A stretch of DNA of 64,000 nucleotides from assembly GCA_016841525.1 (NCBI GenBank), contig JAENYZ010000005.1, positions 209,084 through 273,083 on the forward strand, in the 5' to 3' direction. The stretch comes from Anaerolineaceae bacterium (lineage in GTDB: Bacteria > Chloroflexota > Anaerolineae > Anaerolineales > Anaerolineaceae). Below, in pieces: positions 40,306-55,835 of this stretch (its first letter is position 1; each line of letters opens with the position of its first letter). The position numbers were made by a program, and so were the translations under genes. Below the pieces are notes generated by a model. It was not told the origin of the DNA. It saw nothing but the letters and a program-made list of their open reading frames with translations, and made no database searches.

Positions 40306-40310
40306 CAGAA

Positions 40311-41498
40311 TTACCCCGGCTGGTTGGCGTTTCCATTTGTCTTTGGTAGAAAATTAATAAACAATAAGCCAAGAGGCAGCAATCCCGCACTGATCAGGAA
40401 GGTAAAGCGCAAATCAACCAGGTCAGACAAATAACCAACCATGAGGATTGCTATCGAATGCAAGATAAAACTAATCGCCATATAAACCCCATTGGCAAAT
40501 GATCGGTTGTCTGAAAAATTCTCAATGACCACAGCCATTAAAACCGGTACAATCGCAATGGCAAAGAAGCCAAGCAGAACCAGCAAAAGGATTTTCCATA
40601 CCCCATCTGCTTGAATAAAAAGAAACATCAAAATTGGGGTAACAAGATACGAGCTGAAGAGTAATTTTCTGCGTCCGAACCGATCGCTAAGTGGGCCGGC
40701 AATTAAAGCGCCAAGCATCCCCGCAACTTGAAGAATGGTTAATGAAGCACCAGCAACCCATAATGTGGATCCCTGGGACTTCAAATAAGTTGGAAGGAAG
40801 GTTGTTAAGGTCGCAGACACCATCGACCGTGTGAAGAGCAAAACAGCGACCGGGCCCATAATATGCTTCATCTTTTTTATCGCTTGCCACCAATGAGTGG
40901 AAACCGGGTTCTTTTTTGGCCTGGTTGTAATCCCATCCAATTTTCCAAACAAGAACACGGACATTAATATGCCGCCAATCATCAGCCAGGGCAAACCGCC
41001 AGGTTCGAGATAAGCGATGGCTGTCACGATGATTAAGGGTCCCAGAGCACGCCCAAGCTCTCCTCCGACCATCCAAAAGCTCATCCCTTTCCCCAATTTA
41101 CTGCCAGAAAAAGTGCTCCCCAATACGGGTGCAACCGCATGCAGCGATGCAGAACTGATCCCCGCAGAAAGCAACAGTAATGTTAAAATTCCGTAGGATG
41201 GCGCAATACCCAGTAAACTCATGGCGACCCCGGTAATGGCCGGGCTGAGAACGATCAGCAGTTTCAAATTCCTTCGATCAGCCAGGCGCCCGATTAGCGG
41301 CTGGGTTAAAGATGGAATTTGTAGAAACACCGATAATAAGCCCGCAGCAGTATTGGTCATCGAAAACTTCTCAATTAAGACGGGTAATAAAGCCAGTAGA
41401 AAAGCGGTATAGGTATCGTGCACTGCGTGAGCAGATGCCAGTACAGAAACTTTTTTTGTTTGAAAGTCTTGTTCTTTACTATTTAATTCAATGCTCAA
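40311..41498 (-). CDS. Major facilitator superfamily transporter (fosmidomycin-resistance type)
   Basis: A 395-residue, about 12-helix MFS permease. It has PLIGRLADRRNLKLLIVLSP, a typical loop 2-3 motif, and the block SSASLHAVAPVLGSTFSGS followed by GKGMSFWMVGGELGRALGPL, which resembles the fosmidomycin resistance (Fsr) subfamily; a second motif copy is LIAGPLSDRFGRRKLLFSS. Likely a drug or small-molecule proton antiporter. The start is placed at TTG 41498 because an AGGAGA site lies just upstream; a GTG at 41543 would give 15 more residues without such a site. The gene is alone. Confidence 0.88.
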   Translation of the reverse strand: MSIELNSKEQDFQTKKVSVLASAHAVHDTYTAFLLALLPVLIEKFSMTNTAAGLLSVFLQIPSLTQPLIGRLADRRNLKLLIVLSPAITGVAMSLLGIAPSYGILTLLLLSAGISSASLHAVAPVLGSTFSGSKLGKGMSFWMVGGELGRALGPLIIVTAIAYLEPGGLPWLMIGGILMSVFLFGKLDGITTRPKKNPVSTHWWQAIKKMKHIMGPVAVLLFTRSMVSATLTTFLPTYLKSQGSTLWVAGASLTILQVAGMLGALIAGPLSDRFGRRKLLFSSYLVTPILMFLFIQADGVWKILLLVLLGFFAIAIVPVLMAVVIENFSDNRSFANGVYMAISFILHSIAILMVGYLSDLVDLRFTFLISAGLLPLGLLFINFLPKTNGNANQPG

Positions 41499-41712
41499 GA
41501 AGTTCTCCTGCCTAAAAGTTATAAATAGATTCCTTTTGCGCACTTTTAATAAATATACGCAATAGTTTGGAGCTTTTGTAAGTTTATCAGATTATTTGGA
41601 TAAACTTAAATTTGATTTGCTGAATATTGTATAATTAAGTAGTGATTTCTTTTATTGGGTAAAAATATTCGACCTTTTACTTGAAAGCAGCAGCACTAAT
41701 TGAAAGGTGATT

Positions 41713-42918
41713 ATGAAAATAAAATTCCCCGAAGGCTCAACAGGGGTGCATCCACCAACAGCCGCAATTGCAAGAATTTTGCAATTAAATGGGGTCGTTA
41801 ATCCGATTTCTGGACAGCCGTATTCAGAAGCCCTTCTGCTGGGTATTGGCGGTGGGATTGATATCGGCTACGTCCTTTATCAATTTCAACATCTGCCGTA
41901 CCCCTTACTGGTTCTGGGATTTCGTCACCAGTGGAACTATACACAGGCGTTTTTACATAATTTATCTGAGCGCTTATTCTTGTCTATGACATTCCAAGAA
42001 TATCAGGATGAGACTAATGCACAGGACGGCCTCCAGAAAGCATTACAAGATGGTAAACCTGCCATTGTATGGGTCGATAAGGCATATCTGCCCTATCACC
42101 GATTACCCGAAACTCTCAAAGGTTTGATCAACTACCAGGTGACAGTCTACGAACGTGATGGTCGCTTGTGGCGTTTGTTCATTGACGATTTATCAGAGCA
42201 CCCCATTGAAATCAGAGAAAAAACTTTCACATCAGCCAGAGCTAACCTCAGCCAGAACAATTTCTTGATGATGGTTTATCAAAAAGCGGGAAGCATTAGC
42301 GATAATGAGCTGCGTGAAGCTATTCTTGATGGAATCAGAACCTGTGCCACACGACTGACACGCCCACTTAAAATCATTGGCATCAGCAATTTAGAAAATT
42401 GGGCTGAAAAGCTAATCGATCGTCATGACCGCCAGGCATGGCCAGTTGCTTTTAAAAACCAAATTGGCTTGTATCAAGCCCTTCGCACCACCTATGAATC
42501 GATTAAACTTAATGGGACAGAAGGATTTGCATTAAGAAAACTTTATGCGAACTTTTTACATGAGGCTGCAGGCATTCTCAGCAATCCAGCGTTAAATGCC
42601 ATAACCGGTCAATATCTACAGCTTTCAAATCACTGGTCAAGTCTTGCGGAAAACGCCCTCCCGTCAAAAATCGCTGATTTTGACCGGGTTAAAAAATTGT
42701 TAAACAAGAAATATGAATCATACCGTGAAGGTAATTGGGAAACTTTTGAAAACACAGTTAAAAAGCTTAACACATTGGAGGAAAAAATCATCAATAATTT
42801 TCCTCTCGACAATTATGAGACTGGTAAACTTTTCGAACGTTTATCAAACCAAATTCAACTGATTGCTGAACTTGAAACAAATGCCGCGCAGCGTCTTCGT
42901 GACGTTACACGGCGATGA
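41713..42918 (+). CDS. BtrH N-terminal domain protein
   Basis: A 401-residue protein with the architecture of BtrH-like proteins (peptidase C39-like BtrH_N domain plus C-terminal DUF4872-like helical part). The LGIGGGIDIGYVLYQFQH glycine loop near residue 48 and DGKPAIVWVDKAYLPYH near residue 116 are typical. BtrH transfers an acyl chain in butirosin biosynthesis using an N-terminal Cys; here the equivalent region reads STGVHPPTAAIARIL with no Cys, so a transferase mechanism is doubtful. ATG at 41713 is preferred over the GTG six bases earlier because of the AAAGGTG site. The downstream SDR gene is 25 bases away. Confidence 0.82.
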   Translation: MKIKFPEGSTGVHPPTAAIARILQLNGVVNPISGQPYSEALLLGIGGGIDIGYVLYQFQHLPYPLLVLGFRHQWNYTQAFLHNLSERLFLSMTFQEYQDETNAQDGLQKALQDGKPAIVWVDKAYLPYHRLPETLKGLINYQVTVYERDGRLWRLFIDDLSEHPIEIREKTFTSARANLSQNNFLMMVYQKAGSISDNELREAILDGIRTCATRLTRPLKIIGISNLENWAEKLIDRHDRQAWPVAFKNQIGLYQALRTTYESIKLNGTEGFALRKLYANFLHEAAGILSNPALNAITGQYLQLSNHWSSLAENALPSKIADFDRVKKLLNKKYESYREGNWETFENTVKKLNTLEEKIINNFPLDNYETGKLFERLSNQIQLIAELETNAAQRLRDVTRR

Positions 42919-42943
42919 AAAATTGCAGACATAAGAGGTTCCT

Positions 42944-43954
42944 ATGAATATTTTGATTTTAGGCGGCAAACGATTTTTAGGCATTGCACTGGTAGAAGCT
43001 GCGCTGAAGGCAGGTCATACGCCAACACTTTTTAACCGCGGTTTGACAAACCCTGAAATGTTTCCATTGGTTGAAAACCTGATTGGAGACCGTGACGGCG
43101 ATCTCAAAGCGCTAAAGGGCAAAAATTGGGATGCGGTTATTGATACAAGCGGGTTTATTCCCAGAATTGTCAAACAATCTGCCTCCTTTTTGTCAGACAA
43201 ATCTGATTTGTATGTTTTCATTTCATCCCTTTCGGTTTACCAGGATTTTAAGACCCCCGATATCACTGAAGACTACCCATTGGCACAATTAGAAGATCAA
43301 TCAGATGAAGATTACTCCGGTGATTCTTATGGTCCACTCAAAGCGCTTTGTGAATATGAGATTCAACAAAACTTTGATGGCAAAGTCCTTGTCCTTCGCC
43401 CGGGTCTCATTGTCGGACCGAATGATCCAACCGATCGATTCACCTATTGGCCCTGGCGTGTATCTCTGGGTGGCAAGGTTTTAGCACCTGCACCACCGAG
43501 TTCAAATTTGCAAATCATTGATGTTCGCGATCTTGCAGAATTCATTGTTCGAATGGTAGAAAATCAAAGTGAAGGTGCTTATAACGTTACCGGTCCAAAA
43601 AAGCCGGTCACAATGGGATCCTTATTAGTGTCAAGCCGTGAAGCATCTTTATCCGATGCCAGCTTTGTTTGGGCAGAAGAAACATTTTTGCTTAGAGAAG
43701 GTGTCACCCCCTGGGTGGATTTGCCCTTGTGGATCCCTTCATCTGATCCAAATTTTACAGGGTTTTATAATATCAACAATAACAAAGCGGTAAAAGCGGG
43801 ATTAAGCTTTCGACCTTTATCACAAACAGTGTCCGATACCCTCAACTGGCTGAAAACACGACCTGAAACAAAGAAATTAAAGGCAGGTATGGATATCGCC
43901 CGGGAAACTGAATTGCTGTTAAAGTACACCCCTGAACATGATATGGAATATTGA
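42944..43954 (+). CDS. NAD-dependent epimerase/reductase (atypical extended SDR)
   Basis: A 336-residue Rossmann-fold protein. The N-terminal glycine motif is LILGGKRFLG (GxxxFLG type) and the active-site Tyr-Lys pair is SYGPLKALCE near residue 130. VLRPGLIVGPNDPTDRF and IDVRDLAEFIVRM are typical of isoflavone-reductase-like or NAD-binding SDR members. Likely acts on a sugar nucleotide or a small ketone; substrate not known. It follows the BtrH-like gene by 25 bases with an AGAGGTT site, suggesting an operon. Confidence 0.88.
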   Translation: MNILILGGKRFLGIALVEAALKAGHTPTLFNRGLTNPEMFPLVENLIGDRDGDLKALKGKNWDAVIDTSGFIPRIVKQSASFLSDKSDLYVFISSLSVYQDFKTPDITEDYPLAQLEDQSDEDYSGDSYGPLKALCEYEIQQNFDGKVLVLRPGLIVGPNDPTDRFTYWPWRVSLGGKVLAPAPPSSNLQIIDVRDLAEFIVRMVENQSEGAYNVTGPKKPVTMGSLLVSSREASLSDASFVWAEETFLLREGVTPWVDLPLWIPSSDPNFTGFYNINNNKAVKAGLSFRPLSQTVSDTLNWLKTRPETKKLKAGMDIARETELLLKYTPEHDMEY

Positions 43955-43963
43955 ATTTGAGGA

Positions 43964-44482
43964 TTAAGACGGATACTTTTCCCAATGCACCCGATCGGGA
44001 TCGTACTGTGTGCGCGGTTTTTTCTCTTCTGCAGGATAACCCACGTAAATCACATTCAAAGGTTCCACATTCTTTGGGAGATCAAGAATTTTTGAGATTC
44101 GTTTTTTAAAATTATGAATTGGGTGCACCCCTAACCAAACAGTCCCTAAACCCAATGCTACTGCTGCTAAAAGAATATTTTCTGTTGCAGCGCTGCAATC
44201 CTGCACCCAAAAATCAGCAGCCTTTGGATGCTCAAAAAATGAGGTATTGCCGCAAACGACAATTGCTGCAGGTGCATTGTGCTTCCCGAACATTAATGAT
44301 GAACGGATTGAATCAATGGTTTTGGGATCGGTGACGACAACAAATTCCCATGGTTTAATATTCATCGCCGAAGGCGCTGCCATCGCAGCTTTCAGTAAGG
44401 TTTCCAACTTTTCTTTTTCAACTGGCTTTTCTTGATAATTTCGAATGCTCCTTCGAGCATAAATGGTGTCAATGATGGACAT
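43964..44482 (-). CDS. Nitroreductase-family flavoprotein
   Basis: A 172-residue FMN-dependent nitroreductase-fold protein. IYARRSIRNYQEKPV at the start and AAPSAMNIKPWEFVVVTD near residue 35 bind FMN; later come DCSAATENILLAAVALGLGT and VHPIHNFKKRI, near the typical C-terminal GYP segment (VIYVGYPAEEKK). The substrate is unknown. An AAGGAAG site precedes the ATG. It is transcribed towards the SDR gene and ends nine bases from it. Confidence 0.92.
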   Translation of the reverse strand: MSIIDTIYARRSIRNYQEKPVEKEKLETLLKAAMAAPSAMNIKPWEFVVVTDPKTIDSIRSSLMFGKHNAPAAIVVCGNTSFFEHPKAADFWVQDCSAATENILLAAVALGLGTVWLGVHPIHNFKKRISKILDLPKNVEPLNVIYVGYPAEEKKPRTQYDPDRVHWEKYPS

Positions 44483-44556
44483 TTCGTAATTTCTTCCTTG
44501 TTCTTATATGTTTAGGATTTATAAAAATGTGAAAATTTTTTTGATTCTACTTATAC

Positions 44557-45345
44557 TTATCCCTTATCTAGCTTCACTTTTGATAAAAGCCATTCCAAAC
44601 CCTCTCCTAATGCTTTTGGTGCTTCAATCATCGGCATATGACCAGCATCTTTAATCAATAAGAATCTTCCTTGCGGAAGTGAATTTGCCATTTGGCGAGC
44701 CATATCAACATCAATGATCTGATCTTCCTTCCCTGCAACAACAAGTACGGGCACCTCAATTTTAGGGAACAAATCCATTCTTGAGGGTCTTTCTGCCATT
44801 CCCATTAATGCGCCAATGATTCCATCCGTATCTGTCCCAGCCAATATCTGATGGCTTTGACGCCTGATACTTTCATCCTTTGTCAATTTTGGTGCCAGAC
44901 TTTCAGCAAGCACAACGGTGCCGTTTTCCCTGATAGCCTCAACCATCTGGTGTCGATCTTTTTGTTTTGCCTCTGAATCTGCTGCCGCATGGGTCGTGAT
45001 CAATCCCAAACCTGAAAAGCGTTCTGGGAATTTTTCAGCAAATGCCAGGGTGACGTAGCCACCCATGGAATGACCGCAAATGACTGCTTTATCGCAATTC
45101 AGAAAATCCAATAATTTGGACAGGTCTTCTGCCAGGACTTCCATCGAATACGCGCCTTTTGTTACCTGGCTCTCGCCATGACCGCGCAGGTCTGGAAGAA
45201 TGACCGTATGGGCACTCAGATAATTTTCAGCCATTGCTTTCCAAATGCTTCGGTTCAATCCAAACCCATGGATCAAAACGATGGGAAGACCCGTCTCGCC
45301 AATGATCTCAAACCCCATTTGAATGCCATTAATTTCTGCTTTCAT
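44557..45345 (-). CDS. Alpha/beta-fold hydrolase
   Basis: A 262-residue hydrolase. HGFGLNRSIWKAMAENYLSA forms the oxyanion region, GHSMGGYVTLAFAEKFP the nucleophile elbow, VVAGKEDQIIDVD the acid residue and KDAGHMPMIEAP the catalytic His. The pattern fits the broad 3-oxoadipate enol-lactonase/BioH-like group; substrate unknown. It lies 16 bases after the nucleotidyltransferase gene and may be co-transcribed with the tdk-hpt-cca group. Confidence 0.9.
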   Translation of the reverse strand: MKAEINGIQMGFEIIGETGLPIVLIHGFGLNRSIWKAMAENYLSAHTVILPDLRGHGESQVTKGAYSMEVLAEDLSKLLDFLNCDKAVICGHSMGGYVTLAFAEKFPERFSGLGLITTHAAADSEAKQKDRHQMVEAIRENGTVVLAESLAPKLTKDESIRRQSHQILAGTDTDGIIGALMGMAERPSRMDLFPKIEVPVLVVAGKEDQIIDVDMARQMANSLPQGRFLLIKDAGHMPMIEAPKALGEGLEWLLSKVKLDKG

Positions 45346-45361
45346 TTAAGAATCCTGTTAC

Positions 45362-46837
45362 TCAATGCCTTTTAATTTGTGATTGGATAAACGCTGCAGC
45401 TTGGGCGCGTGTTGTGACTTTCCCAGCTGCCTGCGCTTCTCTTAGTATTTCTAAGATTTCCCCGATTTCCTTCCCAGGTGCCATACCAAATTCATTCTGC
45501 AGGTCATTCCCATCCAACAGCAGTGTTGGGGTGACCACAGTTTGATGCGCTTCCCACCAGGCTGACAACATCACCTTTGAGACCATCAAAGCATGCTGCC
45601 ATTTTTCAGATGTGAGATTCTGGTTATAAGTTGCCAGGGTATCTGCAAGGGACAGCAAAGCAACAGCAGCACCCGCTTCACCTGTTTCTTGATAATAGCG
45701 GTAAATATCAACACGCGAAGGTTCTCGGCCCCGGTTAGCAAACGGAAGTAAATGCATATGGTTTTGAACAACCGTGCGAATCCATTCCGATTCTGCATTA
45801 CTCAACTGCAAAGCCTTTGCTGTCTCCCAGGCTAAATCCGCACCAATTTTGGCATGGTTATAAAAATGAAGATACCCATCCTCACCCACAGTGAATGTTT
45901 CAGGTTTGCCAATATCATGCACCAGCGCTGCAAACATTAATAAGCCATTTTTGGATCTTCCGGGGGTAATTTCTTCTTCCAGGTAATCTGCAATATTTTC
46001 AGAAAATCGCCCCAATGCCGATCGATATGCCGAAAACCACCACGTAGATGGATCTTCCGCAGTCTCAATTAATTGCTTCAAGTAATCAAGGACTTTAAGA
46101 CTGTGATCGAACAATCCCAGCGTATGAGGTTGTGATGCCGGGATATCTTCCTGTTCCATGAGTGTTGGAATCAAGCTCTTAAAGACACCGAATTGACGGC
46201 AGTGTGCCATGCCTTCAGCAGGGTCAGAACCTTCCAATATTTTAAATAACTCATCTCGCTGACGTTCAGGGGATGTGCGGGGTAAATATTGGCTCGCTTC
46301 AGTCATTAAATCAGGCAAACCCGGGGCATAGGAAAGATTAAATTGCATTGCCAGGCGAATACCGCGCAAAACACGAACAGGATCGTCCGTAAGCACTTGA
46401 TCACTGCAGGTACGAAGTAAGCCAGCCGCCAGGTCCTTGATGCCGCCCATGGGATCCAACAATTTTCCTGTGTCACGAACCGAAACCGAAATGGCATTGA
46501 TTGTAAAATCACGATGAATCAGATCAGAATGCAGGTCCTCACCTGTGAATTGAACAAAATCTAATGGAAAAATTTGATTTCCCTGCCGGCGAAAAAGAAC
46601 CCTTGCTGTGTGACGCTCATCATCCAATACGAAAAAACTAACCTGGAGTTTGTGGGCTATTTTTTTCGCCAGGCTCGTGGGATCATCTGGCATGACAAAA
46701 TCCAGATCATGTAAGGGACGTCCAAGCAAAATATCCCTTATTGCACCGCCCACAATATAAAGCGCCTGATCATCCGGCAGTTCCGACAGGATCAGGTCTA
46801 GTAATTGTTCCAACGCCGGACTAAACTTGAGCCTCAT
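45362..46837 (-). CDS. tRNA nucleotidyltransferase / poly(A) polymerase family protein with HD domain
   Basis: A 491-residue class II nucleotidyltransferase. The catalytic head has VGGAIRDILLGRPLHDLDFVM with the metal-binding Asp pair, then DDERHTARVLFRR and DFTINAISVSV, and the RNA-binding helices with DPVRVLRGIRLAMQF. The C-terminal half has an HD phosphohydrolase motif (ALVHDIGKPETF), as in bacterial CCA-adding enzymes fused to HD. It could complete tRNA CCA ends or add poly(A). ATG at 46837 is favoured over the TTG at 46852; both overlap the hpt end by up to 32 bases. Confidence 0.9.
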   Translation of the reverse strand: MRLKFSPALEQLLDLILSELPDDQALYIVGGAIRDILLGRPLHDLDFVMPDDPTSLAKKIAHKLQVSFFVLDDERHTARVLFRRQGNQIFPLDFVQFTGEDLHSDLIHRDFTINAISVSVRDTGKLLDPMGGIKDLAAGLLRTCSDQVLTDDPVRVLRGIRLAMQFNLSYAPGLPDLMTEASQYLPRTSPERQRDELFKILEGSDPAEGMAHCRQFGVFKSLIPTLMEQEDIPASQPHTLGLFDHSLKVLDYLKQLIETAEDPSTWWFSAYRSALGRFSENIADYLEEEITPGRSKNGLLMFAALVHDIGKPETFTVGEDGYLHFYNHAKIGADLAWETAKALQLSNAESEWIRTVVQNHMHLLPFANRGREPSRVDIYRYYQETGEAGAAVALLSLADTLATYNQNLTSEKWQHALMVSKVMLSAWWEAHQTVVTPTLLLDGNDLQNEFGMAPGKEIGEILEILREAQAAGKVTTRAQAAAFIQSQIKRH

Positions 46838-47378
46838 ATTTATCCAGGTCAACTACACCAATGAAGGGCAGGTTGCGATAGTATTCATCCATATCCAGAC
46901 CGTACCCAAAGACAAATTTGTCAGGGATATCAAAGCCGCAGTATTTTATGGGCACATCCACTTCACGCCGAGAAAATTTATTGAGCAGTGTGCATACTTC
47001 CAGACTGGTGGGATTTCGGGTGCGGAGCATTTCAATCACTGATGCAAGTGTATTACCGCTGTCAATGATATCTTCAACGATTAAAACATGTTTTCCCCCA
47101 ATACTGGTAGTAAGGTCCAGGGTGATACGTACCTGGCCGTCAGAGCTGCGTGAACCAACGCCATAGGATGAAACGCCCATAAAATCAATAGCAACCGGTG
47201 GTTTAATATGCCGAATCAAATCCGTTAGGAACATGACGCCGCCGCGAAGGATGCAGATCGCCATAATTTCCTTATCTTCATAATCCCGGCTGATCTCCTC
47301 ACCCAATTCTTTAACGCGTGCTTTTAATTTATCTTCCGGGATTAATACCTCAGCTAAAAAGGAATGATAATTTTGCAT
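46821..47378 (-). CDS. hpt: Hypoxanthine phosphoribosyltransferase
   Basis: HPRT makes IMP or GMP from hypoxanthine or guanine with PRPP (purine salvage). The 185-residue protein has the PRPP motif VLIVEDIIDSGNTL near residue 110 and CILRGGVMFLTDLIRHI near residue 47; the C-terminus has FVFGYGLDMDEYYRNLPFIG, which fits HPRT. The ATG at 47378 has a TGGAGA site; upstream codons to 47426 overlap the tdk end. It is placed between tdk and the nucleotidyltransferase gene, a nucleotide-salvage grouping. Confidence 0.95.
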   Translation of the reverse strand: MQNYHSFLAEVLIPEDKLKARVKELGEEISRDYEDKEIMAICILRGGVMFLTDLIRHIKPPVAIDFMGVSSYGVGSRSSDGQVRITLDLTTSIGGKHVLIVEDIIDSGNTLASVIEMLRTRNPTSLEVCTLLNKFSRREVDVPIKYCGFDIPDKFVFGYGLDMDEYYRNLPFIGVVDLDKYEAQV

Positions 47379-47392
47379 GGTTCTCCAATCAG

Positions 47393-47965
47393 CTAATCTC
47401 TCGGGACTTGATGATGCCTGCGGCATCGTGCTTCATACATTTCCTGTGCACCGACTACAACAATGGGTTCTTCATAATGCGCTGGCTCACCGTTTACCAA
47501 ACGCTGGGTTCGGCTGGCAGATTCGCCGCAAACCATACAAATCGCCTGTAATTTTTCAACCTTTTCAGCCCTTGCCATCAAATCAGGCATACAGCCAAAG
47601 GGTTCTCCCCTAAAATCCATGTCGAGACCGGTGACAATCACACGTACCCCTTGTTCAGCCAGATCCTCAACCACGTCCACAATACCGTCATCAAAGAATT
47701 GCACTTCATCAATTCCAACAACCGTCGTTGACCTGTCCATTTGGGCAAGGATATCCTCCGAGCTTTCCACAGGCTGGGCATCAACATCCAGTCCCGAATG
47801 GGATGTGACCTTTTTATGATTATAACGATTATCAATGGCGGGTTTAAAAACCTGTACATTTTGTTTCGCAATCCTCGCCCGCCGCAAACGTCTGATCAAT
47901 TCTTCCGTCTTGCCGCAAAACATGGAACCACAAATAACTTCTACCGAACCTACATCATGTTTCAT
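47393..47965 (-). CDS. tdk: Thymidine kinase
   Basis: Type II thymidine kinase, 190 residues: phosphorylates thymidine or deoxyuridine with ATP. The P-loop is [14 protein letters not shown] near residue 13; [14 protein letters not shown] holds the Walker B Asp; [14 protein letters not shown] is the lasso region; zinc ligands are in [13 protein letters not shown] and the final CRRHH. The start is MKHDVGS at 47965 with an AGGAGC site; a longer reading to 48013 would run through the rpmE terminator hairpin. First gene of the tdk-hpt-cca group. Confidence 0.95.
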
Positions 47966-47989
47966 AAATCGCTCCTGAGATACTGATAT

Positions 47990-48025
47990 AAAAAAGGACA
48001 GGCAGATGAACATTCATCTGCCTGT
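47990..48025 (-). terminator. Rho-independent terminator after rpmE
   Basis: A 13-bp perfect stem (47998-48010 with 48013-48025) with a 2-base centre, followed on the minus strand by six T. It ends the rplU-rpmA-rpmE operon and is only 33 bases upstream of the tdk start, so tdk must have its own promoter or rely on readthrough. Confidence 0.87.
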
Positions 48026-48059
48026 TAAGTTTACCGGATTTTTTGAAGCTGGAATGCTT

Positions 48060-48539
48060 TTATACGGTGATTTCTTCTGCTGCTTCAGGAATTTTGTATC
48101 CTTGCTGTCGCAAAGCTTTCTTTAAGTCGATCAGAGATTTACGTCCAAAACCGCTAACCTCAAGCAATGCTTGCTCGCCGCCTTCAAGGCGCTCAAGGAC
48201 ATCTGCAATGGTTTTAATACCGGCTTCTTCAAGGACGTTATCCACACGGGTACCCAATCCAAGTTCTGAAATGGCACGGTCTGGGGAAACTTTCTCTTCC
48301 TCTTTAGCTTTTTGATCTTCAAGATATTCCTGGCGAGCCTGTAATCGTTTGTAGAATCGATCAACCTGGCCTTCACGATCAAGAATGCGCTGCTGTTGAC
48401 CGGTATAGAAGGGATGACAGTTGGAACAAACTTCCGTGCGGATCTCTTTTTGTGTCGAACCTGTTGTCCAGGTTGCACCACAAGAGCCGCAAATGACTGT
48501 CGCCTCTGGATAATATTCGGGATGAATGTCTTTTTTCAT
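48060..48539 (-). CDS. rpmE: Ribosomal protein bL31 fused to an RNA polymerase alpha-CTD-like domain
   Basis: The first 70 residues are a zinc-type bL31: MKKDIHPEYYPEATVICGSC with Cys17, 20, 38 and 41 and HPFYTGQQQ. The remaining part to residue 159 is extra: a charged coil (60-83) followed by a helix-hairpin-helix domain (87-150), LGLGTRVDNVLEEAGIKTIA and LLEVSGFGRKSLIDLKKAL, matching the RNA polymerase alpha subunit C-terminal domain. The residues aligned with E. coli alpha Arg265, Asn268, Gly296, Lys298 and Ser299 are all present (Arg98, Asn101, Gly132, Lys134, Ser135). Normal bL31 is 66-90 residues. The gene follows rplU-rpmA. The DNA-binding ability is an inference. Confidence 0.9.
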   Translation of the reverse strand: MKKDIHPEYYPEATVICGSCGATWTTGSTQKEIRTEVCSNCHPFYTGQQQRILDREGQVDRFYKRLQARQEYLEDQKAKEEEKVSPDRAISELGLGTRVDNVLEEAGIKTIADVLERLEGGEQALLEVSGFGRKSLIDLKKALRQQGYKIPEAAEEITV

Positions 48540-48574
48540 AATATTGTTACAATCCTTTCAAAAGTGAATTAGCG

Positions 48575-48841
48575 TTATTCTTCATCAGGGATGGTAACAA
48601 CATGCACCTTTTTCCGCCCGCCAGGCATCGTTTCAAAATGAACGAGACCTTCAGTCGTTGCGAAAAGGGTGTGGTCCTTACCCATACCGACGTTCCAACC
48701 TGGGTGGATCTTGGTGCCACGCTGGCGAACCAGGATATTACCGCTGATAACGAATTCACCACCAAATTTCTTAATGCCAAGTCGTTTCGATTTGCTGTCA
48801 CGACCGTTACGAGATGCGCCGCCGCCTTTTTTATGTGCCAT
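48575..48841 (-). CDS. rpmA: 50S ribosomal protein bL27
   Basis: An 88-residue protein beginning [20 protein letters not shown] with SNILVRQRG-type core ([15 protein letters not shown]) and [11 protein letters not shown], the standard bL27. It lacks the cleavable extra N-terminal peptide found in Firmicutes; the start is directly followed by AHKKGGG. It sits five bases downstream of rplU and 35 bases before rpmE. bL27's N-terminal tail contacts the peptidyl transferase centre. Confidence 0.97.
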
Positions 48842-48846
48842 GATAT

Positions 48847-49164
48847 TTACTCCAATTCAATCGATTCGATCAGCAAACGAGTATATTGCTGCCGATGACC
48901 GTTTTTTACACGATATCGTTGCTTCGGCCTGTATTTGAAGACCAGGATCTTGCGACCTTTGAAGTGATCAAGCACTTTTGCCTGAACCTTTGCGCCTTCA
49001 ATTACCGGTGTACCAATGACTACATTATCGCCATCAACGGATAAAAGGACATCTTCAAGGGTTAACGCTTCACCCACCTCATTTGGCAAACGATCAACTT
49101 CAATCGTATTACCTTCGGCAGCACGATATTGTTTGCCGCCTTGTTCGACAATTACAAATTTCAT
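48847..49164 (-). CDS. rplU: 50S ribosomal protein bL21
   Basis: A 105-residue protein starting [20 protein letters not shown], with [19 protein letters not shown] and [20 protein letters not shown], the bL21 family signature. The ATG at 49164 has a TTGGAG site; the longer reading to 49209 adds 15 residues unlike bL21. The operon rplU-rpmA is followed here by rpmE. A consensus promoter and a stem-loop lie upstream. Confidence 0.97.
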
Positions 49165-49246
49165 TTCATTACTCCAATCTTCACTTAACCAACCTCGCTC
49201 GCGTGTCACCGCCAGGGATCGGGAAAGTTGGGGTTACAATATTATA

Positions 49247-49270
49247 CCCCAGCAAAAATGCCTGCCGGGG
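49247..49270 (-). promoter_or_regulatory. Stem-loop in the rplU leader
   Basis: An inverted repeat CCCCAGCA / TGCCGGGG-like (49247-49270) folds in the 110-base rplU leader. Its position fits autoregulation of ribosomal-protein operons, but the fold is short and not matched to a named L21 leader family. Confidence 0.35.
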
Positions 49271-49282
49271 CAAGGTCACATT

Positions 49283-49311
49283 ATTATAATGGCATCAATC
49301 GCGAAAGTCAA
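49283..49311 (-). promoter_or_regulatory. Promoter of the rplU-rpmA-rpmE operon
   Basis: TTGACT (49306-49311) and TATAAT (49283-49288) on the minus strand, 17 bases apart; transcript start near 49276, about 112 bases before rplU. Confidence 0.7.
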
Positions 49312-49582
49312 CCAGGTCTCAGGGATTGATTACATGTTCCTACATATTAATTAACATCAATAATCATACCCGCTTCGTCAATAAAACCAAACAAAATCCC
49401 ATTCATTGACATTTTGTCAGTAAGGCGTCAAAATAACCAAAGAATGCAAAGCTTTGATGATCCGGACAAAAATTGCTTGTGATTTGATTATATGGGCGTT
49501 GAAGACTAGCTTCACAGCCACAATACCTGGTTTTCCGCAATTTAATCTGACCAAAAGAGCCTAATTTTCCCTATTTTTCCCC
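49312..49582. other. Non-coding spacer between the rplU and mraZ promoters
   Basis: No gene with a ribosome site seen. It holds one short inverted repeat TGACA-TTT-TGTCA (49407-49419) and a weak TTGACA-17-CAAAAT promoter-like pair (49406-49434) pointing right. The rest is AT-rich. Confidence 0.45.
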
Positions 49583-49611
49583 TTGATTTAAAAACATGAT
49601 TACGCTATACT
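49583..49611 (+). promoter_or_regulatory. Promoter of the dcw cluster (Pmra)
   Basis: TTGATT (49583-49588) and TATACT (49606-49611) are 17 bases apart. The transcript would start near 49618, directly in front of the AGTGG repeat array. Confidence 0.65.
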
Positions 49612-49620
49612 TGAAGAACT

Positions 49621-49655
49621 AGTGGTTAAAAGTGGAGAATAGTGGGTTGAAGTGG
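49621..49655 (+). promoter_or_regulatory. MraZ operator: four AGTGG repeats at 10-bp spacing
   Basis: AGTGG occurs at 49621, 49631, 49641 and 49651, exactly one helical turn apart, with different sequences between. Known MraZ proteins bind GTG-type direct repeats with this period upstream of their own gene. Location directly after the predicted transcript start and 49 bases before mraZ supports autorepression of the dcw cluster. Confidence 0.82.
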
Positions 49656-49703
49656 AGCGCCGGCATACCCGGCGCGCCATTGGTATTAGGAGTGGTAGAA
49701 CAG

Positions 49704-50144
49704 ATGTTCTTGGGTCAGTACGAGCACACCATTGATGAAAAAGGCCGAATAACCATTCCCTCGAAATTCAGGGAGGCTTTAGGGGATTTAGTTTATATTA
49801 CCCAGGGCTTTGATGGCAACTTACAGGCTTTTCCAGCAGATTTGTTTGAATTGATGGCAAAGCAGGTGCGTTCAATCAGTTATCTGGACTCAAACAGCCG
49901 CTTGCTCCGCCGAATTCTCTTTGCTAACGCAGAGAAAACAAGTTTTGACAGTGCCGGTCGCGTTCTTTTACCTGCATTCCTGCGAGAGACTGCAAATCTC
50001 AAGGGGATCGCGGTCGTGGTCGGCAGTGGCGAATACTTCGAATTGTGGTCGCCAGAAAACTGGCAAGCACAACAAACATCGCTGAATGATATTGAAGCGA
50101 ATGAAAAAAGATTCAGCGCCCTGGATTTAAAGACCCTGCAATGA
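49704..50144 (+). CDS. mraZ: Transcriptional regulator MraZ
   Basis: MraZ is an AbrB-like ring-forming DNA-binding protein that represses the dcw operon. The 146-residue protein has the two repeated DNA-binding signatures: TIDEKGRITIPSKFREALGD near residues 8-27 and FDSAGRVLLPAFLRE near residue 80. ATG at 49704 with TAGGAG upstream gives the usual MFLGQYEHTIDEKGR start; a longer frame to 49632 reads through the operator repeats and is rejected. It overlaps rsmH by four bases. Confidence 0.96.
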   Translation: MFLGQYEHTIDEKGRITIPSKFREALGDLVYITQGFDGNLQAFPADLFELMAKQVRSISYLDSNSRLLRRILFANAEKTSFDSAGRVLLPAFLRETANLKGIAVVVGSGEYFELWSPENWQAQQTSLNDIEANEKRFSALDLKTLQ

Positions 50145-51118
50145 ACGACACAAATCATGGGGAGGGAGCCGTCGCTGGCAGCCCCGGCGATCAATTCCCC
50201 CACCAACCAGTTCTTTACCATGAAGTCCTGGATGCTCTGGCACCTGAGCCTGGCAAAAATTACCTTGATGGCACCCTGGGTGCTGCAGGCCATGCAGAAG
50301 GCATTCTCAATGTCTCAGCGCCCGACGGGAGCTTGCTTGGCCTTGACCTTGATCCGGAAGCGTTGGCAATTGCTCGCCAGCGCCTTTTAGCCTTTGGGGA
50401 TCGTGCAATCATCCGCCAGGCATCCTATGAATTAGCGCCGGATATATTGGAAGAAATTGGGTGGCACAAAGTTAACGGCATCCTGCTTGACCTGGGTGTC
50501 TCATCAATGCAAATTGACCGCCCATCTCGAGGCTTTTCTTTTATGGAAGAAGGTCCTCTGGACATGCGATTCGATCAGACAACCGGCAAGACAGCCGCAG
50601 ATCTGGTTAACACCCTCAGCGAAGAAGCCTTAGCGGACATCATTTGGAAATTCGGAGATGAGCGCTACTCTCGCAGAATCGCCCGGGCACTAATTGCAGC
50701 AAGACCAATTTACTCAACAAAGGACCTGGCTGCAATCATCCAGAAAGTTGTCCCCGGGTATTCTTCGCAAATACATCCGGCGACCCGCAGCTTCCAGGCG
50801 CTTCGTATTGCCACCAACAGGGAATTGGAAACGCTTGCCAATGCCCTACCAGGATTGATCGCTTGTCTTGAGCCAGGTGCAAGAATTGCTGCGATTAGCT
50901 TCCATTCACTGGAAGATCGAATAGTGAAGCAGATCTTTAAAAAAGAAAGCCGGGATTGCATTTGCCCACCGGAACAACCGATGTGCACCTGTGGGCACAA
51001 GGCTTCATTAAATATTCTTACAAAGAAGCCAATTACGGCTTCAAAGAATGAAATTCAGGAAAATCCACGATCACGCAGCGCAAAGCTGCGCATCGCAGAG
51101 AAAAAAAGCAAGGCATGA
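50141..51118 (+). CDS. rsmH: 16S rRNA (cytosine1402-N4)-methyltransferase
   Basis: RsmH (MraW) methylates C1402 of 16S rRNA using SAM. The 325-residue protein has HQPVLYHEVLDAL near residue 21, the SAM motif YLDGTLGAAGHAEGIL, LLDLGVSSMQIDRPSRGFSF with GPLDMRFD, and the C-terminal PATRSFQALRIATNRELE plus AAISFHSLEDRIVKQ, all family hallmarks. A tail with ENPRSRSAKLRIAEKK ends it. It overlaps mraZ by four bases (ATGA). Standard second gene of the dcw cluster. Confidence 0.97.
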   Translation: MNDTNHGEGAVAGSPGDQFPHQPVLYHEVLDALAPEPGKNYLDGTLGAAGHAEGILNVSAPDGSLLGLDLDPEALAIARQRLLAFGDRAIIRQASYELAPDILEEIGWHKVNGILLDLGVSSMQIDRPSRGFSFMEEGPLDMRFDQTTGKTAADLVNTLSEEALADIIWKFGDERYSRRIARALIAARPIYSTKDLAAIIQKVVPGYSSQIHPATRSFQALRIATNRELETLANALPGLIACLEPGARIAAISFHSLEDRIVKQIFKKESRDCICPPEQPMCTCGHKASLNILTKKPITASKNEIQENPRSRSAKLRIAEKKSKA

Positions 51119-51137
51119 CAATTGCAAGGTTATGGCT

Positions 51138-51623
51138 ATGAAAAATCAAATTTTACAAGCCTATAAACAAGCCCCATGGCGAATCCAGATTCAATGGATT
51201 GGCCTGTTTCTGCTTGCAGTGGTGCTTATCGCCGCAATTACCGGCCTTTACCTGAATATCAGCGCCCAAGCAGCAACTTCTGGACGAAAAATTCAATATT
51301 TGGAAAGTGATATTGAAGACATAAATAATGAAATTGCTGACCTGACAACACAGCTTGCAGAAGCACAATCCACTGAAAATATGCGTGCAAGAGCAGAGGA
51401 ACTCGGGTTCAAAATGATCGATCCCAATAATGCTGTTTATCTTGAAATCCCTGGCTATGACCCAAATGCGGACCTTGTACTTGCGCCGCCAAGGGTTAAT
51501 ATCATTGCAGAGTCTCCAATTGTTAAGTCTTCATATAAAATTTCGCTTTGGGAATGGTTCATCGATCAAATTTGGCAGCCAACGATAAATTCAACTGGGA
51601 TTGAAGGGGGGATGCTGCCATGA
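51138..51623 (+). CDS. ftsL: FtsL/DivIC-like cell division protein
   Basis: A 161-residue small bitopic membrane protein. A basic N-terminus (MKNQILQAYKQAPWRIQ) is followed by one transmembrane helix (IGLFLLAVVLIAAITGLYL, residues 21-39) and a coiled coil (QYLESDIEDINNEIADLTTQ) with the QLAEAQSTENMRARAEELGF end typical of FtsL/DivIC septum proteins. An unusual C-terminal extension of about 60 residues follows (PNADLVLAPPRVNIIAESP). ATG 51138 is preferred for the AAGG site eight bases away. Located between rsmH and ftsI, as expected. It overlaps ftsI by four bases. Confidence 0.85.
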   Translation: MKNQILQAYKQAPWRIQIQWIGLFLLAVVLIAAITGLYLNISAQAATSGRKIQYLESDIEDINNEIADLTTQLAEAQSTENMRARAEELGFKMIDPNNAVYLEIPGYDPNADLVLAPPRVNIIAESPIVKSSYKISLWEWFIDQIWQPTINSTGIEGGMLP

Positions 51624-53404
51624 AAATGCCTTTCCATGGTCGTTATTTATCTATTGTAATTATTTGCGCTATCCTGGGTGGGGCAATTGTAGTTCAAATG
51701 GTTCGCATTAATTACACAATCTACGCCCAACAATTAATTGCAAAGTCTGAAGATTACCAGGGCATCGAAAAGGTCATTTACCCATCACGCGGGAACATCT
51801 ATGATCGTTCAGGGCACATCCTGGCAACCAACCAGGTTGGTTATGAACTTGGCATTGACCTGAAATTTGTTGCAGACCCTGAATCCATCGCTTTTTCTGT
51901 TGCATCAATTATTGATGACATGGATTATGTGAATGTTTATGAATTAGCCAACACAGAAAAGCGTGATGTTGAGAACAGGTACTTCGTTCTCTCTAGTTAT
52001 GTTAGCAAGGAAAAGATTGACGAACTTGCAAGGTTAAAAGAAAACTACGCTGAACGGCGCCAGGAGCAGAAATCCAGTAAACCCAGTTTATCTGGCTTGG
52101 TGTGGTACCCTATGCAGCAGCGAACGTACCCTGAAGGCACCTTAGCTGCCAACATTCTTGGGTTTTACAACTACTTTTCTCGTGAAACAGCCCAGGGTGT
52201 CTATGGAATTGAAGAGTCTTACAACCGATTGCTGACAGGAAAGCCGGAAAGCGTCTTTATGCCAAATGACCCCTATCTGGTTGAAGCATTACCGGATACC
52301 CAGCCTGGAGCAAGCCTGGTTCTCACCATTGATCGTGATATTCAGAGCATGATTGAAAAAACCCTTGCAGATGCCATTGAGTGGTCTGATGCAGAGGGCG
52401 GCACCATCATTGTTGCTGACCCGAAAACTGGTGAAATCCTGGGCATGGCAAGCACCCCCTACTTCAACCCCAATGAATATTGGAAATATGAAGAGACATT
52501 TCCCGGGATCACACCCTACAATCGGGCAATCGGCACTACTTATGAGCCCGGCTCCGTATTCAAGGTCATTACGATGGCCGCCGGCTTGGACAGCGGCGTT
52601 GTTGAGCCATCCTCCACCTACAATGACGCATCTGGCGTTTATTGGGTTGCCAACAGTTGGCCAATTTATAACTGGGACGGCGGTGCCTGGGGCGAGCAGG
52701 ATATGACTGGCTGTATGCAGCATTCGTTGAATGTATGTCTTGCGCACATTGCAATTGACCTCTTGCACGAGGATCTTTTTTACCAATATGTGCAGGCTTT
52801 CGGCTTTGGCAAAAGCACGGGCATAGACCTGGCAAGCGAAGCTAATTACCCGCTTCGCCTGCCGACAAGCAATCAATGGGTTGAAATTGATCTGGCAACT
52901 AATTCATTTGGGCAGGGTATTGCTGTGACCCCCATTCAAATGGTGACTGCAATCTCTGCGGTCGCCAATGACGGCTTGATGATGACACCGCATGTTGTAC
53001 GAAGCGTTATTGATCGCGGACAGCAATATGACGTCACCCCCCAGGTTATCAACAGCCCCATATCTGCAGAAACTGCCCGAACATTAACCCAAATGCTTAC
53101 CGTTGCCCTTGAAGAAGAAGCTTCGGACGCCCTGGTTGAAGGCTACAGCATTGCAGGAAAAACCGGCACAGGGGAAATCCCGACAGAATTTGGATATACC
53201 AGCGAATTAACCAACACATCCTTCGTAGGATGGGGGCCATCAGATGATCCCCAATTTCTCGTTTATGTGTGGCTCGAAAAACCAAGCATATCAAAATGGG
53301 GCTCTGTTGTTGCAGCCCCGGTCTTTAGAGATGTTGTCGAACAACTTGTTGTCTTGATGCGAATTCCCCCGGATAATATCCGATTGGGGACGGCAAATGA
53401 GTAA
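51620..53404 (+). CDS. ftsI: Division-specific peptidoglycan transpeptidase (FtsI/PBP2-type)
   Basis: Class B penicillin-binding protein that crosslinks septal peptidoglycan. The 594-residue protein has one transmembrane anchor (LSIVIICAILGGAIVVQMV), the PBP dimerisation part with SRGNIYDRSGHILATN, and the transpeptidase domain with catalytic Ser in YEPGSVFKVITMAAG, the SLN triad in MQHSLNVCLAHIA, and KTGTGE in IAGKTGTGEIPTE. No PASTA domains. It overlaps ftsL by four bases (ATGA). It is followed directly by murF; murE, which normally stands here, is missing. Confidence 0.95.
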   Translation: MKMPFHGRYLSIVIICAILGGAIVVQMVRINYTIYAQQLIAKSEDYQGIEKVIYPSRGNIYDRSGHILATNQVGYELGIDLKFVADPESIAFSVASIIDDMDYVNVYELANTEKRDVENRYFVLSSYVSKEKIDELARLKENYAERRQEQKSSKPSLSGLVWYPMQQRTYPEGTLAANILGFYNYFSRETAQGVYGIEESYNRLLTGKPESVFMPNDPYLVEALPDTQPGASLVLTIDRDIQSMIEKTLADAIEWSDAEGGTIIVADPKTGEILGMASTPYFNPNEYWKYEETFPGITPYNRAIGTTYEPGSVFKVITMAAGLDSGVVEPSSTYNDASGVYWVANSWPIYNWDGGAWGEQDMTGCMQHSLNVCLAHIAIDLLHEDLFYQYVQAFGFGKSTGIDLASEANYPLRLPTSNQWVEIDLATNSFGQGIAVTPIQMVTAISAVANDGLMMTPHVVRSVIDRGQQYDVTPQVINSPISAETARTLTQMLTVALEEEASDALVEGYSIAGKTGTGEIPTEFGYTSELTNTSFVGWGPSDDPQFLVYVWLEKPSISKWGSVVAAPVFRDVVEQLVVLMRIPPDNIRLGTANE

Positions 53405-53415
53405 AAGGAACGCCA

Positions 53416-54837
53416 GTGTTTAACCTGATGGACATCGTCCAGGCTCTGACCAAAAAGCAATCGCCACTGCTGGATTTACCAATCAGTGGTGTTGTGATTG
53501 ATTCACGCCAGGCAACACCGGGCTGTCTTTTCGTCGCCTTGCGGGGCGAACAAACTGACGGACATAAATATGTCCAGAATGCCTTTGACAATGGTGCGGT
53601 TTTAGCACTTGTTCACAGAGAGGTATCTGGCAAACACCAAATACTTGACCTCCGAACAACAGACATTAAGCCAGAGGAGATCAACACAGACCTGCCGCTC
53701 TGTTTGCTGGTCGAAGATACGCTTCAAGCCTTACAAAATTTTGCAGCCTATTGGCGAGCAAAACACCCTGTTCGCACAATTGGGATAACAGGAAGCGTTG
53801 GTAAAACAACGACCAAGGAATTGACCGCATCGCTTCTTTCGCAAAAGTATAATGTTTTGAAAAATCCGGGAAATCGAAACAATGAAATCGGTTTACCCTT
53901 GACCTTGCTGGAGCTCGAGGATCGCCATGAAGTTGCTGTCCTTGAAATGGGTTTTTACGTCCCGGGTGAAATCCGAACCCTATGTAAAATCGCCCAACCG
54001 CATATTGGCGTCCTGACAAACATCGGGACGGTTCACGCTGAACGTGCCGGCTCACAGGAAATTATCGCCAAAGGAAAAGCTGAACTGGTTGAAATGCTGC
54101 CGCCAGGTCCTGAAGGCATTGCCATCCTCAATATGGATGATACCTTCGTCAGGGCGATGGCAGCACAGACCCAAGCGGATGTGTTTTCTTACGGCATTGA
54201 GCAAAAAGCAGATCTTATGGCTGCTGAAATTGAAGCGCAAGGTCTGAACGGAGTTTCTTGTAACCTAATTTTCCAGGGACACACTCATCGAGTTCATTCA
54301 CCTTTGCTGGGAGACTTTTCTGCATACACCATTTTACGGGCTGCTGCCGTTGCCCTGAAGGAAGGTCTCGATTGGGAAACCATTGAAGCAGGGATCGCAG
54401 ACAGCCAGATCGACTTAAGAATGCGGCAGTTCTCATCCCCAGTCGGCGCCGTTATCCTTGATGATACCTACAATGCCTCCCCCGCCTCTACCACGGCTGC
54501 CCTGAAGTTGCTGGGAGATCTTGAGGGGCGAAGGATTGCCATCCTGGGAGATATGCTTGAACTGGGTCAATATGAGCGGTCCGGGCATTATAAAGTTGGA
54601 AAATTCGCCTCAAAAATTGCTGATGTATTAATACTGGTTGGCGAGCGATCAAAGACCATCGCAAAAGCTGCACTTGAAGCGGGTTTTCCAGAAGAGAACA
54701 TCCACTGGCATCCAAATGCAATGGATGCGAGAGAAACCGCCTTGAAAGTCGTCCATAGCGGCGATGTGGTGCTGGTTAAAGGCTCAAACAGTATGCGGAT
54801 GGGTCAGATCACAACAGCATTGGAGGGGAAAAGCTGA
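53416..54837 (+). CDS. murF: UDP-N-acetylmuramoyl-tripeptide--D-Ala-D-Ala ligase
   Basis: MurF adds D-Ala-D-Ala to UDP-MurNAc-tripeptide with ATP. The 473-residue protein has the N-terminal uridine part VVIDSRQATPGCLFVALRGE, the ATP P-loop GITGSVGKTTTKELTASLL, the carbamoylated-Lys region, NPGNRNNEIGLPLTLL, and NASPASTTAALKLL in the C-terminal domain. The start is GTG with AAAAGGAA upstream. It begins 12 bases after ftsI. MurF is distinguished from MurE by the NEIG...L motif and the short DSR block. Confidence 0.95.
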   Translation: MFNLMDIVQALTKKQSPLLDLPISGVVIDSRQATPGCLFVALRGEQTDGHKYVQNAFDNGAVLALVHREVSGKHQILDLRTTDIKPEEINTDLPLCLLVEDTLQALQNFAAYWRAKHPVRTIGITGSVGKTTTKELTASLLSQKYNVLKNPGNRNNEIGLPLTLLELEDRHEVAVLEMGFYVPGEIRTLCKIAQPHIGVLTNIGTVHAERAGSQEIIAKGKAELVEMLPPGPEGIAILNMDDTFVRAMAAQTQADVFSYGIEQKADLMAAEIEAQGLNGVSCNLIFQGHTHRVHSPLLGDFSAYTILRAAAVALKEGLDWETIEAGIADSQIDLRMRQFSSPVGAVILDDTYNASPASTTAALKLLGDLEGRRIAILGDMLELGQYERSGHYKVGKFASKIADVLILVGERSKTIAKAALEAGFPEENIHWHPNAMDARETALKVVHSGDVVLVKGSNSMRMGQITTALEGKS

Positions 54838-55832
54838 TGGAAAACACCTCTGTTGCCATTGCCCTCAGCGGTTTGAGCTTTATAATGACCGTCATTTGGG
54901 GTGAGCCCTTAATTCGCATCTTGAATGCATGGCGAATTGGTAAAATCATCCGTCAGGACGGACCGGATGAGCATTCCGCAAAAATGGGGACCCCCACGAT
55001 GGGCGGCTTCATGATCCTGATACCGGTCACCCTCATAACGGTCCTTTTCAATGCTGTTTCGATCTTTGGCTTCAATCTTTTGGGACGCTCCGTCCTGCTG
55101 CCATTATTGTCTATGTGGGCTTACGCGGTTCTCGGAATGATCGATGACTGGGAAGGCATACGGGGACCACGCCGCGGCCTGGGGATGCGGGCTGTCACAA
55201 AATTTGCGATCCAGATCGTCATTGCCGTTGGCATCGCAATCGCCCTGCGCGATATCCTGGATGTGCCCCAATTGATCTGGTTCACCTCCAATGAGGTCAT
55301 CAGTCTTGGCGCATTTTACATCCCGATTGCTGTTTTCATCATCGTCGGCATGTCAAACGCTGTCAACTTCACTGATGGTTTGGATGGGCTGGCTGGCTTG
55401 ATTGCAGCAACAGCTTTTGCGGCTTATGGATTTGTTGCAGTTATGCAAGGACAGGTCTACCTGGCAAGGTTTTGCTTCTCACTGGTTGGTGCCCTTTTTG
55501 GCTTCTTGTGGTTCAATGTTCACCCGGCAAGGCTTTTCATGGGTGATACAGGCTCCCTGGCGCTTGGCGCCACACTGGGTGTCGTTGCTTTAATGACCGG
55601 TCAATGGCTGATCATCCCCTTGCTTGCTGTGATTCCGGTCAGTGAAGCTTTAAGCGTTGTCATCCAGGTGCTGTACTTCAAAGCAACGGGCGGCAAACGA
55701 TTTTTTAGAATGGCACCGCTGCACCATCACTTCGAGCTGATTGGCTGGAGTGAGACGCAGGTTGTCCAGCGGTTCTGGTTAGTAAGTTTGGTATTCACCA
55801 TGCTTGGCATGGCTTTGGTTTTAGTGGAGTAA
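54837..55832 (+). CDS. mraY: Phospho-N-acetylmuramoyl-pentapeptide-transferase
   Basis: MraY makes lipid I by transferring phospho-MurNAc-pentapeptide to undecaprenyl phosphate. The 331-residue membrane protein has about ten helices, the Mg-binding DDWEGI segment with RRGLGMRAVTKF, the catalytic NAVNFTDGLDGLAG, and FMGDTGSLALGA, then the HHHFELIGWSE histidine block. The start overlaps the murF stop (TGATG), giving coupling. Confidence 0.97.
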   Translation: MENTSVAIALSGLSFIMTVIWGEPLIRILNAWRIGKIIRQDGPDEHSAKMGTPTMGGFMILIPVTLITVLFNAVSIFGFNLLGRSVLLPLLSMWAYAVLGMIDDWEGIRGPRRGLGMRAVTKFAIQIVIAVGIAIALRDILDVPQLIWFTSNEVISLGAFYIPIAVFIIVGMSNAVNFTDGLDGLAGLIAATAFAAYGFVAVMQGQVYLARFCFSLVGALFGFLWFNVHPARLFMGDTGSLALGATLGVVALMTGQWLIIPLLAVIPVSEALSVVIQVLYFKATGGKRFFRMAPLHHHFELIGWSETQVVQRFWLVSLVFTMLGMALVLVE

Positions 55833-55835
55833 GTG

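Follow-up and report, generated by a model that had tools for sequence, protein, structure and literature searches.

The gene for ribosomal protein bL31 (rpmE) in the window, by which we mean the whole 64,000-nucleotide stretch of DNA analyzed here, raises an unusual question: what is a domain resembling the C-terminal domain (CTD) of the RNA polymerase (RNAP) alpha subunit doing at the end of a ribosomal protein? The N-terminal part of the protein is readily accounted for. An earlier note on this DNA had described it as a normal zinc-type bL31, and this description holds: the Pfam model PF01197 (Ribosomal_L31) scores 96.1 bits against a cut-off of 27 (E 1.4e-27), three bL31 models from NCBIfam are over their cut-offs on the same part, and the four zinc cysteines (C17, C20, C38, and C41) are all present. 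Each of these cysteine positions is conserved in at least 90% of 38 aligned rows, with the first pair spaced as CxC rather than CxxC in several relatives. One related fused L31 has no zinc cysteines (locus L048, 1501-1944). A search of the genome found no second bL31.

Table. Features of the fused rpmE gene and its two neighbors, in window coordinates.
Feature	Position	Strand	Remark
Downstream neighbor, thymidine-kinase-like	47393..48013	-	Named from its sequence
rpmE, bL31 with RNAP alpha-CTD-like domain	48060..48539	-	159 aa plus stop, ATG start
C-terminal EAAEEITV, residues 152-159	48063..48086	-	Least variable of the four segments within the genus
Alpha-CTD-like helix-hairpin-helix domain, residues 89-151	48087..48275	-	PF03118 match spans residues 79-144; predicted fold
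KKALR, residues 140-144, last helix	48108..48122	-	Positions 140, 141, and 144 basic in 70 of 70 L31 tails
Arm and linker, residues 63-88	48276..48353	-	AlphaFold2 full-protein model; predicted helix 55-83 starts within the core
Zinc-type bL31 core, residues 1-62	48354..48539	-	PF01197 match spans residues 1-66
Upstream neighbor, rpmA (bL27)	48575..48841	-	Named from its sequence

The remainder of the protein is matched best by alpha-CTDs, whether it is compared by profile, by PDB sequence search, or by fold, in agreement with the helix-hairpin-helix (HhH) alignment originally proposed. The Pfam model PF03118 (RNA_pol_A_CTD) scores 43.6 bits in the whole protein against a gathering score of 23.8 (E 2.4e-11), and 45.7 bits when the tail is taken alone, whereas the generic helix-hairpin-helix model PF14520 (HHH_5) scores 17.5, short of its cut-off of 27. 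The C-terminal ends of the NCBIfam RpoA models also match the tail, with scores under their whole-protein cut-offs. Among the best 60 of 104 PDB sequence matches, the N-terminal part retrieved bL31 chains and the tail retrieved RNAP alpha subunits (best E 4.1e-5); none of these solved chains spans both parts, and the L31 chains stop by residue 81. The rpoA of the genome, a 340-residue frame on contig 8, has kept its own CTD (68.5 bits for the CTD match), and the domain discussed here sits on bL31, not on the RNAP alpha subunit.

Structural prediction supports the same assignment, with moderate confidence for both models. An AlphaFold2 model of the full protein, built from 27 aligned sequences (mean pLDDT 76.9, pTM 0.41), contains the L31 beta strands, a single helix from residue 55 to 83, and then the short helices of an alpha-CTD. 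The two domains had been thought to be joined by a charged coil; a connecting segment is there, but it is predicted as this one helix instead. For the model of the tail alone (pLDDT 70.4, pTM 0.53) the top Foldseek match was 9dvt_A (rmsd 1.0 over 60 columns, E 3.5e-3), with none at E 0.001 or below, and the best 50 of 104 matches (E up to 10) all carry RNAP or alpha-CTD titles. A second structural comparison superposed the tail model on E. coli alpha with a Z of 10.6 (rmsd 1.7 over 66-67 residues), as against 8.1-9.1 for the HhH chains of Rad51/Dmc1, although Z values below about 13 in helical proteins may reflect a mere common arrangement of helices. Residues 22-90 of the model (84-152 of the protein) align structurally with E. 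coli alpha 251-316, and the numbering of the DNA-contact equivalents used below agrees with this alignment. Taken together with the profile match, the fold comparison leads us to regard the modeled tail as best described as alpha-CTD-like, with a separation from other HhH folds that is not clean. A generic HhH fold, the alternative that the earlier note had set against its own reading, is disfavored by the PF14520 score and by the titles of the best 50 Foldseek matches, a judgment tempered by the Rad51/Dmc1 values.

The fusion is real and not a chance event, as it is present in 39 of the 41 nearest genomes and its HhH part is under constraint in the genus. The two exceptions are G001, a 66% complete genome with no match, and G029, matched by its alpha-CTD only; in G017, also among the 41, the match begins at residue 19. 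Among 13 sequences of the genus (78 pairs), pN/pS came to 0.18 in both the HhH domain and the linker, as against 0.09 in the core and 0.03 in the last eight residues. Synonymous differences of 0.58-0.74 are near saturation and make these values rough, yet they show that variation in the tail is restricted. The terminal EAAEEITV stretch is perhaps a short C-terminal motif.

Beyond the nearest genomes, the fusion is a constant feature of its own order (37 of 37 genomes, counting profile matches that extend to position 134 or beyond in a model of 157 positions), and by the same threshold a match is present in at least 150 of the 396 genomes of the class. Sixteen of these class matches contain an internal stop, including that in G094 (locus L026), which ends right after the domain. 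Other families of the class returned weaker E-values, in the same range as bL31 without the domain (the G237 and G305 sequences were inspected). Across 301 genomes of the phylum, no match outside the class extended beyond query residue 98, among the matches listed. When at least 588 L31-encoding stretches from named genomes were scored, 26 of the best 80 L31 loci had the domain, all from records titled Chloroflexi, Chloroflexota, Anaerolineae, Anaerolineales, Anaerolineaceae, or Promineifilum; of the other 54, 53 could be translated to their stop and had no domain, and one (L094) was ended by a contig edge. No extension into the domain was found in the L31 of eight genomes with other titles, nor in the L31 matches listed, for 58 of 61 genomes, from the phylum of an Armatimonadetes record (one of those eight included). 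Viral contigs in IMG/VR yielded 13 bL31-like loci (L132-L144), and the domain was absent from all 12 that were inspected (all but L143). Carriers may exist beyond the genomes sampled. Of the 26 fusion loci, some of which end at contig edges, 21 have an rpmA-like motif upstream and 17 have a tdk-like one downstream.

In RNAP, the alpha-CTD residues R265, N268, G296, K298, and S299 were named in the earlier note as contacts to the DNA minor groove; to these we add N294, a sixth DNA-contact position. The first five are all kept in the window protein, as R98, N101, G132, K134, and S135, and the sixth is a glycine (G130), giving five of six. The extrapolation from these residues to DNA binding, though, does not carry over to the wider family. 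We aligned 70 L31 tails, leaving out L002, which is the window gene again, and L049-L051, which have no domain; 67 of the tails are distinct, and 15 of the 70 come from the genus of the window. All five residues occur together in 12 of the 70 (10 of the distinct tails), that is, in 12 of the 15 from the genus and in none of the 55 outside it. Taken singly, the R265 position is Arg in 65 of the 70 and the G296 position Gly in 68, while K298 is kept as Lys in 53 and S299 as Ser in 46. The N268 position is Asn in 22 tails and acidic (Asp or Glu) in 37. At the N294 position Gly is found in 68 tails and Asn in one, in contrast to the RpoA CTDs of the same order, where it is Asn in 13 of 13 and where all six contact positions are kept throughout.

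A different set of residues characterizes the L31 tails. The last helix is basic at positions 140, 141, and 144 in every tail sampled, and these positions are not equally specific. Position 141 is basic in none of the 13 RpoA CTDs (Glu in six, Asp in four, Gln in two, Ala in one), none of five tails from the membrane proteins described below, and none of four NusA domains. At position 144 a basic residue occurs in 7 of 13 RpoA CTDs, and in no membrane-protein tail (0/5) or NusA domain (0/4), and position 140 is basic in 9 of 13 RpoA CTDs, all five membrane-protein tails, and two of four NusA domains. As 140 and 144 are also basic elsewhere, position 141 is, among the domains compared, the clearest mark of an L31 tail, with 144 a partial mark and 140 none. 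A proline at 151 (65 of 70 tails), together with G130, distinguishes L31 tails from RpoA CTDs, and many surface positions differ between the two groups. Across the 70 tails the net charge of the entire domain averages -1.3 (range -8 to +2), so the domain itself is not a basic one. Since the complete DNA-contact set is absent from the sampled relatives outside the genus, we consider a repurposed arm of the ribosome more probable than a module for promoter binding.

Related domains are found on other proteins. The genus of the window encodes a bactofilin-like membrane protein (L003, 1465-2745 on contig 8 of G000; L168, L169, and L170) that ends in an alpha-CTD-like tail, and a NusA with an alpha-CTD-like domain under the profile cut-off lies at 1081-2973 of L004 (G000 contig 5). 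In G672, G581, G438, and other genomes of the class there are five to eight matches each to the fusion profile, such that several further proteins may bear domains of this kind. Two alpha-CTD-like stretches also occur in a 467-residue open frame at 41773-42270 on contig 6 of G696, from a record titled Planctomycetota.

In a tree of 92 such domains (78 columns, 200 bootstrap trees) the RpoA CTDs formed one clade (93/84) with no L31 tails inside it, as did the four NusA sequences (100/97). The L31 tails grouped with the bactofilin-like tails (86/84), with the forks inside this group unresolved. The L31 tails needed two changes in this tree, and a single branch separated them from all other domains in only 2% of the bootstrap trees, because the membrane-protein tails fall among or beside them. 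On this sequence evidence a single capture of the domain by bL31 is possible. A recent copy of the genome's own rpoA is unsupported, given the separate RpoA clade in a tree of only 78 columns.

These comparisons enable us to propose a model in which an alpha-CTD-type domain has been remodeled into a docking arm anchored on the ribosome. We favor this explanation tentatively, giving it a little under an even chance. In this model, bL31 would have acquired an RNAP alpha-CTD-type domain at its C-terminus in an ancestor shared by some members of the class Anaerolineae, and would have retained it. With no second bL31 found and an intact core, most ribosomes would probably carry the domain. According to PMC10931766, normal bL31 contacts uL5 through its N-terminal domain and, in the 30S head, uS13 through its C-terminal part, and these contacts make up the inter-subunit bridge B1b, while PMC9966373 places residues 62-63 near S14; on this published placement the tail would start at the 30S head, borne by a helix that begins where normal bL31 meets it. 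The domain would then most likely dock on the ribosome itself, on 16S rRNA or proteins of the 30S head, through the basic face of its last helix, and so reinforce or tune the bridge. Consistent with this, the L31 core is intact and constrained, a long predicted helix connects the two domains, the RpoA CTDs make up a clade that includes no L31 tails, and the DNA-contact residues vary among L31 tails but are constant in RpoA. The basicity of 141 and 144, set against the RpoA, membrane-protein, and NusA domains, links the basic face to location on bL31. Conversely, only 141 is basic exclusively in L31 tails, which counts against docking, as do the overall charge of the domain and the C-terminus of uS13. 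There, comparison by eye of the 28 loci that could be read out of 30, five of them from carriers and 23 from other genomes, showed no evident matching change (carriers were assigned from the class survey, in which G355, one of the 23, had no L31 match). The moderate confidence of the models and the lack of a solved structure of the fusion among the best 60 of 104 PDB matches weigh on the same side.

The fold and profile of the tail are those of an alpha-CTD, and the domain could instead act as a putative alpha-CTD mimic that binds the NusA C-terminal domain, NusG, or RNAP and so couples ribosome and polymerase during transcription. PMC4642336 and PMC12297416 describe binding of the E. coli alpha-CTD to NusA-AR2, and in the window genome NusA carries, close to its C-terminus, an alpha-CTD-like domain of its own (18.3 bits, under the Pfam cut-off of 23.8). 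We nevertheless regard this tether as unlikely: the surface positions of L31 tails differ widely from those of RpoA CTDs, and the published contacts put the bL31 C-terminus on the 30S head, from where a helix of roughly 30 residues would have to reach the polymerase. A putative physical link to NusA, NusG, or RNAP on the ribosomes of part of the Anaerolineae, which would serve as a coupling device, is by the same measure doubtful. DNA binding of the UP-element type, in the minor groove as for RpoA, is a further putative role, suggested by the retention of the five named residues in the window and most of its genus and by the near-constant R265. It is the reading we hold to be the most improbable for the family, with the five residues never found together outside the genus, N268 so often acidic, and N294 almost always glycine; having surveyed the 70 tails we have downgraded it as a conserved function, and UP-element-like binding could be confined to the genus of the window.

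The tree points to a different possibility, that of a docking module for a putative cell partner common to the bL31 tail and the tail of the bactofilin-like membrane protein. The tail of one 442-residue open frame shares as much as 51% identity with the L31 tail, two membrane proteins match both Bactofilin and PF03118 (both over cut-off in one of them), and their tails lie beside L31 tails outside the RpoA clade. The branch that joins them reaches only 86/84, though, and among the genomes searched the bactofilin-like protein was seen only in the genus of the window, in 7 of 16 genomes (in one of the seven as a 105-residue frame; five of the seven were inspected), whereas the L31 fusion is far wider; moreover, the copy in the window genome is degenerate and the basic residues at 141 and 144 are absent from five of five membrane tails. 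A shared partner is thus improbable in our estimation. We give similarly little credence to putative autoregulation, in which the tail would act on its own mRNA leader or promoter to control the rpmA-rpmE unit. PMC10931766 describes bL31 as an autogenous translational repressor in gamma-proteobacteria, but assigns that repression to an N-terminal segment, and no Rfam match at gathering was obtained in 40000-56000 of the window, although Rfam does not necessarily include elements of this kind.

Whether it is a docking arm or something else, a domain best known from RNAP is here a constant component of an intersubunit-bridge protein throughout a large group of bacteria. It has given the ribosome either a permanent arm at bridge B1b or a handle on the transcription machinery; the latter, if true, would be a coupling device made from the polymerase's own tethering domain. 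None of the titles and abstract openings listed by our literature searches, with most subscription papers and all of bioRxiv outside their reach, describes a bL31/alpha-CTD fusion.

Comparison with known systems sets the fusion apart from each of its relatives. Like other zinc-type bL31 proteins (PF01197, rpmE) it has a complete four-cysteine core, is the sole copy found in its genome, and has an rpmA-like gene upstream; unlike them, it extends to 159 residues, compared with 70 in E. coli according to PMC9966373, and adds a long helix and an extra folded domain. It shares with the RNAP alpha-CTD (PF03118) a profile, a predicted fold, and near-constant R265 and G296 equivalents, but the L31 domain is found off RNAP, has exchanged N294 for Gly, does not keep N268, K298, and S299 family-wide, and is marked by a basic residue at 141 and a common proline at 151. 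The acidic-repeat and C-terminal alpha-CTD-like domains of NusA likewise represent a related HhH domain on a protein of the transcription machine, although they form their own clade. Finally, terminal additions are found among the lineage-specific extensions of ribosomal proteins, for example in chloroplast ribosomes as described in PMC5071890, but the part added here is a recognizable folded domain that is otherwise known from another machine. The fusion is a lineage-specific ribosomal protein extension, unusual for its recognizable polymerase-type domain.
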